A stretch of DNA of 64,000 nt from Pseudosulfitobacter koreensis (lineage in GTDB: Bacteria > Pseudomonadota > Alphaproteobacteria > Rhodobacterales > Rhodobacteraceae), in the NCBI RefSeq assembly GCF_024733015.1, contig NZ_JANKJG010000001.1, forward strand, positions 372,001 through 436,000, given 5' to 3'. Below, piece after piece: positions 20,757-24,769 of the stretch. Within the stretch, counting starts at the first letter, position 1. Each line of letters starts with the position of its first letter. Made by a program: the position numbers and the translations under genes. The notes under the pieces are model-generated. The model was not told where the DNA came from and did not search any database. It saw only the letters and a list, made by a program, of their open reading frames with translations.

Positions 20757-21674
20757 TCAACGGCGCAAGGCCAGGCGCACGGCCAGCCAGCCGGTCAGCA
20801 TGATCGCGAAATCAACGGGCAGCCAGCGCGCGATGGCAGCTTCGTCCGACAGCGCGAAGGGCATTATGTAGAGCGCAAGCCCCGACAGGTCGTCGGGCAT
20901 GGCGGTAAACAGCATCGCGATGACGTTGTTGATGAAATGCACGGCGATGGCAGGCCCCAGCGTGCCGGTGCGCGCGGTCAGGTCCGCCATCAGCAGCCCG
21001 AAGATGCCCGCCCATGCGGCGATCCAGATCGCATTGCCGCCCGTCGTTTCGGGCGCATAATGGCCCAGTGCAAACAGTGCCGATGGCAGCACCATCCACA
21101 CCAGCGGCGAGGTGAACCGCGCCGCCAGTTGCTGCTGGATATAGCCGCGAAAGAGCAGCTCTTCGGCGCTGACCTGCACCAAAACCGCCAGCAGCGACAG
21201 TGGCAGCAGCGCCGCCCAGACCCCAAACGGCAGTCCGGGCAGCATCGGCGGGTCCATCCCCCAGGGCGGCAACACCACCAGCGCCAGTGACAGTGCAACC
21301 ATCGCCGCCGCCGCCACGCCGAACTGCAATGCAAAGGGGCGCCAAGGCCCAAGCAGCGTCAGGGCAGATCGGTTGTGCAGCACCGTCACCAGCAGCGCCA
21401 GCACCAGCGTCATCGCGCCAAAGCTGAACAGCAGCGCCAGCATATCGAAAGGGGTGGCACCCGTTGCCTCATTGCCGACTGCCGCACCCGCACGCGCAAA
21501 AGGCGCGAACAGCGCGAACAGCGCGAACAGCGTGGTGTAGAACACCTGCGCCAGCAGGATGTAGCCGCCTGCCCCAAGCACCAACCCTGCGACCAGCCGC
21601 CAAAGCTGCGCGTGGCTTCGGGCGGGTGCGACGAACGCCTGATGCGGCGCGTAGGCGGCGGGCGGCCGGATCAT
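20757..21674 (-). CDS. CPBP family intramembrane metalloprotease
   Basis: The 305-residue protein has about eight hydrophobic segments and the Abi/CPBP protease domain in its C-terminal half. All three motifs are present: EELLFR at 171-176, FALGH with His205, and HFINN with His246 and Asn250. It should therefore be an active membrane protease of the Rce1-like clan. Its ATG overlaps the stop of the ABC-like gene (ATGA), so the two proteins are made together. Roles of bacterial relatives include bacteriocin immunity and membrane protein processing. The substrate is unknown; the ABC-like partner is the first candidate. Confidence 0.9.
   Translation of the reverse strand: MIRPPAAYAPHQAFVAPARSHAQLWRLVAGLVLGAGGYILLAQVFYTTLFALFALFAPFARAGAAVGNEATGATPFDMLALLFSFGAMTLVLALLVTVLHNRSALTLLGPWRPFALQFGVAAAAMVALSLALVVLPPWGMDPPMLPGLPFGVWAALLPLSLLAVLVQVSAEELLFRGYIQQQLAARFTSPLVWMVLPSALFALGHYAPETTGGNAIWIAAWAGIFGLLMADLTARTGTLGPAIAVHFINNVIAMLFTAMPDDLSGLALYIMPFALSDEAAIARWLPVDFAIMLTGWLAVRLALRR
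21503..21529 (-). repeat. Three tandem copies of a 9-base unit in the CPBP gene
   Basis: GCGCGAACA occurs three times in a row on the plus strand and encodes the repeated LFA of the first long hydrophobic stretch of the CPBP protein (about residues 49-58). The unit is in frame, so slippage would change helix length by three residues without a frameshift. Confidence 0.8.
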
Positions 21675-24600
21675 TCCTCATCCTCAAGCGATGGGGCCAC
21701 GGGGCTGCGCACCTCGGTCAGGTCCAGTCGGGCGTCGCGCAGCAGGTCTGCGGCGCCGTTCAGATGCGTGCCGACGCTCTGCAGCAGTTGCAGCAGCACG
21801 CCGGTGTCGTTCTCGTAGACAGCGCGGAATTCCTCGGCCCCCAGCCGCAGGAACTTGCCGTCGGTCGTGGCGGTCAGATCCATCTGGCGCGGCTCGTTCA
21901 GGATGATCGACAGGTCGCCGATCACCCGCCCAGGATTGACGGTGGTCACGGGGTGGCTTTCGCCATCCGCATCGCGGTAACTCAGCAGCGCCTGCCCCGT
22001 GACGCACAGATATGCGGCGTCGGCAGGCTCGTCGGTCGAAAACACGCGCTGCCCTTCCACCACGGGATACCATTTCGCGGCAAAAGCCAGCAGGCGCTGG
22101 TTGCGCGCGTCAAGCTTGCCGAACAGCTCGGTGCGTCCGATCACCCGCAGCTTGCGGCGCAGATCGACCGCGCCAGAGCCGTTTTCGTCGTCGGCCTCCT
22201 GCGTCAGGATACCGTCGATGCGCCCATTGCGGATTTCGATGAACAGATCATAGGCGTCTGGGTTTTCGAACGATTCCTCCATGAAGATCAGCGTCGATTT
22301 CGGCAGCAGTTCCCGCAGACCCGTGCGCGCCGCGCTGCGCTGGATACTGTTGTGGCTGGCCAGCGCGCGGTCCAGAACCAGAATGTCGGGCCGCTTGATC
22401 GCCGCACGGCTGAAGGCGGCGCGTTCCTGAAAGATCGTCGGAATCTTGATGCCGCCAAGTCCGGTGGGGATGTCAAAGATCGTCTCGGCCACCAGCCCCT
22501 GCAAACCTTGCTCGACCAGCAGATCCGACACCAGATCCTCGACCTCTCTGGCACGCGCGCCCGCCATTGCGGAGACACGCCCATACAGCGCGTTTTCCAG
22601 AATGGTCAGCCGCGGCAGGTAGTTTTCCGGTGCGATCGGCACGAACATATCCGCCATCAACGCGCGCAGGCCAGGCCCGTGCTCGCGGCGGATCTTCAGG
22701 ATCTCATCCTTGAAGCTTTCGGGGAAGGCCGCCCCGAACTGTTCCGCCGTCAGCGCAAAGGGCACCGTCAGCAGCAGAGCGAATTCGTCATCGTTCAAGG
22801 CCGCGTCCCCGTTGGCATGGCGACGCTCGGCAATGTCGACCAGTTGCTCGTACATCTCTTCTTCGATGCCCAGCGCAGTGAACAACGGGTGATTGGTGCC
22901 GTCCCGGCCAAAGGTCTGCAGCAGCGTCTCCATCAAGGTCTGCGAAATCGCGATGCCCTGTTCGGCCAGTCCCTGTTCGGTGATCAGCCGCAGAAAGTGC
23001 CCCTCGTCGGCCAATGCCTGCTGGCTGATGCTGAACCGGGGGGCTGCGAACAATAGGTTGCCGCCCAGCGGCACCGACGGGTTGAAACGGTCGGGAGAAA
23101 AGCGGTTCACCACCTCATCCAGTCCGGCGGCCTGCAAGCGTCTTTCAACCTCGGGGCGCAGATCGACAATGGCCTGCGCAAGTTTCGGATGCTGTTCGAC
23201 GTTGATGATCGAGTTCATCATGCGGCGCACCATCTGATCCTGAACACCGACCGCATTGATCAGCCGGAACCACCACGCGCGGATGTCGCCCGCATCGTTC
23301 AGACCCGCCAGCCCCGGATCGACCCAATCGGCACGCAGGCTGTCGATGCTGTTGCCCGCGCGGCCCGCCTCGATGCCCATGCGGTCCTTCTTGCCGGGGT
23401 CCCACAGAACCGTGCGCGGACTGGTCATCAGCGGCATCAACAGGTTGCTGCCCAGCGTGCCGTCGAACAGATAGGGCCGCGAATGGGCATATCCGATGCG
23501 CGCGGCGATCACCGCCTGATGCAGGTCCGACAGATCGTGCCCGGACATGGTGACATGGCCCCGCGCAGGCATCACCTCGCGGGTCAGCAGGTCGGCAAGC
23601 GCCGTGCGCTCGGTCTGGCTGGCCACCTGAATGGCGACGCGCGCGCCTGCCGGTATCTTCAGGTCTATGTTCTCGAGGACCATGTTGCCATCGGCGTCGC
23701 GCACGGTGACGCCATCCAGCACGATTTCACCGTCCAGATGGGGCACAGACTTCGGCGCGCCCTCGAACTTCTCGGCGTCGATCATCCCCTTGGGATTGAA
23801 CCGCTCGGTGACGATATCCCAGCGCACCGACATGTCCTGTACCTGGTTGTAATAGGTCAGCAGTTCCTTCCACGGGCTTGACAGGTCCTTGTAGGCCGCC
23901 AGCGCCGCGACCAGCGCGCCGACCGACACCTGCCCCTTGATCACCAGATAACCGCCCACCGAATAGAAAAAGAATGGCGTCAGCTGGGTGATGAAGTTGT
24001 TGATGAACTTCATGAAGAATTTTTTCTGGTAAATCCGATAGCGGATGTCGAAGAGCCGCCCAAGCCGGTCGGTGAATTGCGCCAGCCGGTAGCGCCAACC
24101 GCCATTGGTGCGCAGATCAGTGACCCCTGCAGCACTTTCCCCGATCTCGGACGACAGCGCACGCACCTCTACGATCCGCGCCTTGTTCAGCACGTTGATC
24201 TGGCGTTGCAGCATCGGGATCAGCCAGGCCTGCAACGGGATCAGCGCCACACCGGCCAGCCCGAACCAGACACTTTGCGCGAACAGGAACGCCACGATGA
24301 TCAGCATCTGCCCCGCCTGAAACACCGGCTGCGCCAGCGCGTCGCCCATCAGCCCGCCCATCGGCTCGGCCTCGGAGGTGACCATGCTGACCAACTCGCC
24401 TTGCGACGTGGTGCGGAAATAGCTGCGCGGAAACCGCATCATCCGCGCGATCAGCGTATAGCGCAGGCGGCGCAGCAGCCTTTCCGACACCACGCCCTTC
24501 ATCGTATTCAGGCGCATCTTCAGCAGTCCGTGCAGCAGCACCGCCAGCAGATAAAGACCGCAGAGTACCATCAGAAAGGTGATCTGGCCCAGCTCCGCGC

Positions 24601-24769
24601 CCCACAGGACAACCGTATCGGAAGCGGCACCGATGGCATCGTTGATGATCCGCTTGGGCAGTTCCAGCGTGGCGTAGAGAAACGGAAACGTCACCAGCGT
24701 GACCAGCAGCAACAGCACCTGATCGCGTTTGGAGTGTTTCCAGATAAAACCGAACAGCGATCGTTCCAT
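21671..24769 (-). CDS. ABC-exporter-like protein with degenerate ATPase domain and C-terminal cyclic-nucleotide-binding-like domain
   Basis: This 1032-residue protein has an exporter-type membrane domain (about 15-310) and the first part of an ABC ATPase fold (346-450). About 260 extra residues with no recognised fold follow, then the second part of the ATPase (about 715-855) and a CNB-like domain (about 895-1005). The ATP-site motifs are lost: the Walker A place reads VASQTERTA (382-390), the Q-loop IGYAHS, and the LSGGQ place IPTIFQ (776-781). Walker B VLD is followed by Arg801 instead of Glu, and the H-loop place reads FMEES. The CNB part keeps GDLSIILNEPR (951-961), including the phosphate-contacting Arg position. 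The start is set at 24769, where MERSLFGF follows AGGCGGG; the frame is open 39 codons further. It is probably a membrane sensor or scaffold rather than a pump. The CPBP gene is coupled downstream. Confidence 0.85.
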   Translation of the reverse strand: MERSLFGFIWKHSKRDQVLLLLVTLVTFPFLYATLELPKRIINDAIGAASDTVVLWGAELGQITFLMVLCGLYLLAVLLHGLLKMRLNTMKGVVSERLLRRLRYTLIARMMRFPRSYFRTTSQGELVSMVTSEAEPMGGLMGDALAQPVFQAGQMLIIVAFLFAQSVWFGLAGVALIPLQAWLIPMLQRQINVLNKARIVEVRALSSEIGESAAGVTDLRTNGGWRYRLAQFTDRLGRLFDIRYRIYQKKFFMKFINNFITQLTPFFFYSVGGYLVIKGQVSVGALVAALAAYKDLSSPWKELLTYYNQVQDMSVRWDIVTERFNPKGMIDAEKFEGAPKSVPHLDGEIVLDGVTVRDADGNMVLENIDLKIPAGARVAIQVASQTERTALADLLTREVMPARGHVTMSGHDLSDLHQAVIAARIGYAHSRPYLFDGTLGSNLLMPLMTSPRTVLWDPGKKDRMGIEAGRAGNSIDSLRADWVDPGLAGLNDAGDIRAWWFRLINAVGVQDQMVRRMMNSIINVEQHPKLAQAIVDLRPEVERRLQAAGLDEVVNRFSPDRFNPSVPLGGNLLFAAPRFSISQQALADEGHFLRLITEQGLAEQGIAISQTLMETLLQTFGRDGTNHPLFTALGIEEEMYEQLVDIAERRHANGDAALNDDEFALLLTVPFALTAEQFGAAFPESFKDEILKIRREHGPGLRALMADMFVPIAPENYLPRLTILENALYGRVSAMAGARAREVEDLVSDLLVEQGLQGLVAETIFDIPTGLGGIKIPTIFQERAAFSRAAIKRPDILVLDRALASHNSIQRSAARTGLRELLPKSTLIFMEESFENPDAYDLFIEIRNGRIDGILTQEADDENGSGAVDLRRKLRVIGRTELFGKLDARNQRLLAFAAKWYPVVEGQRVFSTDEPADAAYLCVTGQALLSYRDADGESHPVTTVNPGRVIGDLSIILNEPRQMDLTATTDGKFLRLGAEEFRAVYENDTGVLLQLLQSVGTHLNGAADLLRDARLDLTEVRSPVAPSLEDEE

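Follow-up and report, generated by a model that had tools for sequence, protein, structure and literature searches.

We analysed a 64,000-nucleotide window of the Pseudosulfitobacter koreensis genome (positions 372,001 to 436,000 of contig NZ_JANKJG010000001.1) and focus here on one gene on its minus strand, which begins with an ATG at position 24769, ends with a stop at position 21671 and encodes a protein resembling an ATP-binding cassette (ABC) exporter. Sequence comparison and structural modelling together give good support to the view that this protein is a conserved pseudo-ATPase derived from an exporter of the homodimeric type. The gene and its parts, with the evidence for each, are as follows.

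21671..24769, minus strand: gene for the putative pseudo-ATPase ABC exporter-like protein with a C-terminal cyclic-nucleotide-binding (cNMP) domain, 1032 residues (open frame, translation, Pfam domains and full-length homologues)
23780..24769, minus strand: transmembrane domain, residues 1-330, of the type IV exporter kind and the best conserved part (ABC_membrane, AlphaFold2 model, matched-pair identity)
23435..23734, minus strand: N-terminal half of the degenerate nucleotide-binding domain (NBD), residues 346-445 (Pfam; alignment of the model with solved NBDs, starting at residue 343)
23603..23626, minus strand: Walker A position, VASQTERT (382-389), Lys replaced by Arg388 (family alignment)
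23480..23482, minus strand: Q-loop position, in IGYAHS, Gln replaced by Ser430 (family alignment)
22610..23434, minus strand: insert of about 275 residues between the Q-loop and the signature, residues 446-720 (repeats detected with hhalign; folds alone)
22202..22609, minus strand: C-terminal half of the degenerate NBD, residues 721-856 (AlphaFold2 model, structural alignment)
22430..22444, minus strand: signature position, IPTIF (776-780) replacing LSGGQ (family alignment)
22367..22384, minus strand: Walker B, ILVLDR (796-801), Asp800 retained and the catalytic Glu replaced by Arg801 (family alignment)
22274..22276, minus strand: H-loop position, His replaced by Glu832 (family alignment)
21734..22174, minus strand: cNMP domain, residues 866-1012, with its Pfam core at 905-988 (PF00027; phosphate-binding cassette GDLSIILNEPR)

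Pfam assigns ABC_membrane (PF00664) to residues 41-290 (E 1.9e-21; 77 bits against a cut-off of 28) and cNMP_binding (PF00027) to residues 905-988 (E 9e-14; 51.6 bits against a cut-off of 27.5), and its ABC_tran match at residues 365-442 is below threshold (21.8 bits; cut-off 25). None of the 25 NCBIfam models listed passed its cut-off for this protein. The motifs that define a type IV exporter, namely Walker A GxxGxGK[ST], the Q-loop Gln, LSGGQ, the catalytic Glu and the H-loop His, have all been replaced. This bears out the initial annotation, which had described an exporter fold with these five elements replaced and had quoted letters that do sit at the canonical positions. Its stronger wording, that every ATP-site motif was lost, holds for the five named replacements but not for the site as a whole, where the Walker B aspartate (Asp800) and the Walker A Ser/Thr (Thr389) are still present, so that by letter two of the seven key residues are left.

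The homologue search proposed in that annotation showed that the substitutions are shared. In an alignment of the close family (111 sequences, 103 of them different, from Rhodobacterales and a few Gammaproteobacteria such as Moritella and Granulosicoccus), no sequence had the Walker A Lys, the Q-loop Gln, LSGGQ, the catalytic Glu or the H-loop His (0/111 for each). The replacements themselves recur: Glu387 is found in 94 and Arg388 in 98 of the 111, the Q-loop position is Ser in 89 (some wider relatives have YVGQD), and LPTVF is the commonest form of the signature. Position 801 is K, Q, R, N or T next to an Asp800 present in 80/111, and position 832 is D in 69, E in 15 and N in 11 sequences, an acidic residue in 84 in total. 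As a control we used an ordinary exporter of the bacterial family to which the window's genome belongs, and its Q-loop Gln, LSGGQ, Glu and His were intact in all 30 orthologues. The window copy is thus not a lone exception, a reading that the shared loss of motifs rules out, and the protein is a conserved one of marine bacteria. The window's genome carries a second full-length copy (L002, here the B paralogue), which is 54% identical to the window copy (copy A).

Loss of catalytic motifs alone could resemble decay, and a decaying gene or an assembly error has to be considered for that reason. The frame is, however, under strong purifying selection in every domain: compared with a 94%-identical homologue, the gene has a ratio of nonsynonymous to synonymous substitution rates (dN/dS) of 0.065 overall and of 0.04-0.15 per domain, the degenerate NBD included, and about 100 different intact homologues come from finished as well as draft genomes. 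The dN/dS values and the conserved frame agree with the initial annotation that this is not decay; a decaying gene is ruled out, and the alternative of decay or misassembly is exceedingly improbable. The distribution of constraint along the protein differs from that of a working exporter. Among pairs with a transmembrane-domain identity of 45-65%, this domain is more conserved (0.61) than the NBD (0.41), and the order is reversed in the control exporter (NBD 0.76, transmembrane domain 0.72). The ATP-site columns are 0.35 identical in the exporter-like family, below even the NBD average, while in the control these columns are 97% identical, with 13/14 invariant and the remaining one varying only between T and S. 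The transmembrane domain also has many invariant polar residues.

An AlphaFold2 model built from 62 family sequences (mean predicted local distance difference test score, pLDDT, of 82) resembles type IV exporters and aligned to PCAT1 and TM287/288 at Z of about 25. With a second aligner, 226 of the 239 residues of the ComA NBD superposed on residues 343-859 of the model (2.5 Å, Z 24.7), which indicates that the insert interrupts an otherwise complete NBD fold and that the degenerate ATP site is the sole site. We also looked for another ATP site in the rest of the chain and rejected it, since the model holds a single NBD fold over 343-859; the comparison with exporter NBDs suggested by the initial annotation therefore upholds its reading. 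The insert itself (446-720) carries repeated copies of the segment with which the NBD's helical subdomain begins (x-N-L-L-F-G), with repeats 2 and 3 matching each other at an hhalign probability of 97.9 (E 3.7e-13) and repeat 1 more weakly. Modelled alone, segment 440-775 reached a pLDDT of 91.5. Foldseek found no significant fold match for the insert in the PDB, and the second aligner gave weak matches only; its top hit (Z 3.1) and two more fall in NBD regions of ABC proteins. The insert looks like a segment from the helical subdomain of this same NBD, multiplied in tandem.

Within an alphaproteobacterial superfamily whose members have lost the ATP site to differing degrees, the window protein is the extreme. 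Of 385 alphaproteobacterial genomes, 132 carry the wider family according to profile searches; these relatives are about 900 residues long and have the same insert. The seven key residues do not occur together in any of 240 superfamily members; the best (L249) has six, lacking Gln, L198 has five, and the fused Rhodobacterales type has 0 to 3. Among the 109 members of the unfused group, Lys is retained in 61, Glu in 55, His in 34 and Gln in 22, and such partial retention of Lys, LSxxQ, Glu or His among the wider relatives indicates a stepwise loss that happened repeatedly. A tree built from the transmembrane domain has 8 to 17 changes of state for each ATP-site trait, a sign that constraint on the ATP site is relaxed throughout the family. 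Rooting this tree with ordinary exporters gave outgroup branches too long for a reliable root, so the direction from an ordinary exporter to the degenerate form is inferred from ordinary exporters in general.

In the unfused relatives (L195-L224, L249), the Walker A Ser/Thr is replaced by Glu or Asp in 93/109 and the Walker B Asp by Asn or Ser in 84/109, an exchange that looks as if an acidic Mg ligand had switched sides. Both changes occur together in 83/109 (Fisher p 0.007), but independent pairs on the tree were not significant and we do not claim a swapped Mg site.

Partial retention of Lys, Glu or His in the wider relatives also speaks for an alternative in which nucleotide is still used, either at a rewired ATP site or in an asymmetric heterodimer where an ordinary exporter subunit does the hydrolysis, as in TAP or TM287/288. 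Arg388, Thr389 and Asp800 are present in the window copy, several ordinary exporters are encoded in the window's genome, and degenerate-site exporters are well known, their degenerate sites still holding ATP (PMC7756269). In a heterodimer, however, one subunit supplies the Walker motifs of a given site and its partner the signature, and with both gone here neither composite site would be complete. At the loci inspected, no exporter gene adjoined that of the family, although a partner could be encoded elsewhere, and the presence of a single family copy in some genomes argues against obligate pairing of the two paralogues. We therefore consider continued use of nucleotide unlikely.

If ATP is not the input, cyclic nucleotide is an obvious candidate. 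The phosphate-binding cassette of the cNMP domain (GDLSIILNEPR) has Arg961 in 110/111 family members, and the position of the usual cassette Glu is Asp952 in 106/111; the Glu is retained in the B paralogue. In the unfused relatives, a stand-alone cNMP gene adjoins the exporter-like gene on the same strand at 93 of 97 loci, and of the remaining four, two are fused and two have no cNMP gene in the DNA examined. An annotated Rhizobium record has the identical gene order, and the tree requires at least two separate cNMP fusions. In one relative, genes for a class III cyclase and a metallo-β-lactamase (MBL)-fold hydrolase adjoin the cNMP and exporter-like genes (L178 5394-8470); cyclase-like genes lie near 8/97 and MBL genes near 6/97 of the loci of unfused relatives. 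The initial annotation, right about a pseudo-ATPase exporter fold, had missed this domain, as well as the nature of the insert and the gradient across the Alphaproteobacteria.

The genomic setting of the relatives gives the other lead. Divergently upstream of the unfused genes lies a cluster encoding a glycosyltransferase of family 28 (GT28; 73/97 loci), one of family 4 (GT4; 70/97) and a histidine phosphatase (58/97), and these partner genes suggest a glycolipid or glycan. In the window's genome, the matching cluster is found elsewhere (contig C5, 2153-8119), with no exporter-like gene adjoining. This uncharacterised cluster (L307 2153-8119) consists of a deacetylase-like gene, GT28, a histidine phosphatase, two GT4 and another GT28, followed by a nucleotide-sugar dehydrogenase. 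Across 149 genomes of the window's bacterial family, a GT28 orthologue was present in 31/31 genomes with the exporter-like gene and in 7/118 without it (Fisher p 1e-25, uncorrected for kinship and overstated, since related genomes are not independent). The two genes are not direct neighbours in this bacterial family; both are on one contig in 12 genomes, and in 10 of these a member of the exporter-like family is 20-82 kb away from GT28. A conserved glycosyltransferase beside the B paralogue was considered and rejected, as the 347-residue glycosyltransferase-like neighbour in the window's genome is absent beside the other B copies examined.

Copy A has a conserved setting of its own in most Rhodobacterales, made up of accD, folC, ilvD and the following gene.

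20757..21674, minus strand: CPBP/Rce1-like membrane protease gene (PF02517, E 4e-18), overlapping the exporter-like gene by 4 nucleotides (21671-21674)

At 64 of 80 homologous loci the exporter-like gene has the CPBP gene, along with accD and folC, beside it, and the protease is a possible partner of copy A. This arrangement, with the 4-nucleotide overlap, the fusion or adjacency of the cNMP domain and the loss of the ATP-site residues, would fit a pure membrane receptor or scaffold without any translocation, which reads cyclic nucleotide and organises glycosyltransferases or, for copy A in the Rhodobacterales, the CPBP protease. We regard this as rather unlikely, since the transmembrane domain is the best conserved part and its many invariant polar residues look as if a translocation path mattered.

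The explanation that we favour, with moderate confidence, is a class of explanation in which the protein acts in a surface-glycan pathway as a cyclic-nucleotide-controlled gate, a flippase-like conduit or a scaffold. The sensor, channel or scaffold role offered in the initial annotation would be narrowed in this way by the links to cyclic nucleotides and glycosyltransferases. ATP-driven pumping would have been lost, because the usual pump cycle cannot run when ATP is unusable. A cAMP- or cGMP-type signal bound at the cNMP domain would set the conformation, with the dead NBD serving as the transmission piece between this domain and the rest of the protein, and the conservation of the transmembrane domain could mean that something still passes or binds there. 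The role would lie in making or placing a surface glycan from the GT28/GT4/phosphatase cluster, with the protein either letting a glycolipid through, as a gate controlled by ligand or a flippase-like conduit, or holding the enzymes together as a scaffold in the membrane.

Several observations weigh against this explanation. Arg in place of Lys, together with the retained Thr and Asp, could in principle hold nucleotide weakly. The Asp for Glu exchange in the cassette may weaken cyclic-nucleotide binding by copy A, which, judged from its sequence, may have drifted from this function too, with copy B keeping the Glu. The window copy adjoins the CPBP protease, accD and folC and has no glycosyltransferases beside it, and the co-occurrence with GT28 is counted over related genomes. 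A tentative extension, which we hold to be rather unlikely, is that an entire exporter lineage was converted, through stages that living relatives still display, from an ATP-driven pump to a cyclic-nucleotide-gated conduit for a surface glycolipid, control having passed from ATP in the NBD to a cNMP protein that was first a neighbour and was later fused.

The best sequence and structure matches of the window protein are type IV (ABCB-like) homodimeric exporters such as MsbA, PCAT1, ComA and BmrA, which share the order of a six-helix transmembrane domain followed by the NBD. Unlike these, it lacks the intact motif set, has the insert of about 275 residues and the C-terminal cNMP domain, and is more conserved in the transmembrane domain than in the NBD. 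Degenerate nucleotide sites are also a feature of exporters with one such site (TAP, TM287/288, TmrAB, BmrCD, MRP1 and BSEP) and of CFTR and SUR, but all of these have one consensus site per dimer, while here an entire half-transporter has none and the chain is apparently homodimeric. CFTR and SUR use the exporter fold as a channel or regulator. Degenerate sites have been studied in exporters where the second site is active (reviewed in PMC7756269). No description of the exporter-like family was found in a literature search that left most subscription journals outside its reach. In annotated plasmid records, relatives are named 'ABC transporter transmembrane domain-containing protein', 'ABC transporter ATP-binding protein' or 'cyclic nucleotide-binding domain-containing protein'.

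Many genes named 'ABC transporter ATP-binding protein' may therefore be misnamed, as the name implies an ATPase that the sequence does not support. Degenerate exporter sites have so far been known as one of two, and here both are gone in an apparent homodimer from a widespread family. Some living relatives retain as many as six of the seven key residues. The family opens to experiment the long-standing question of which functions an exporter fold can have once ATP is out of play, and of the route by which a pump may become a regulator or gate of the kind seen in CFTR and SUR. The family also ties cyclic-nucleotide signalling to an uncharacterised glycan cluster across the Alphaproteobacteria.

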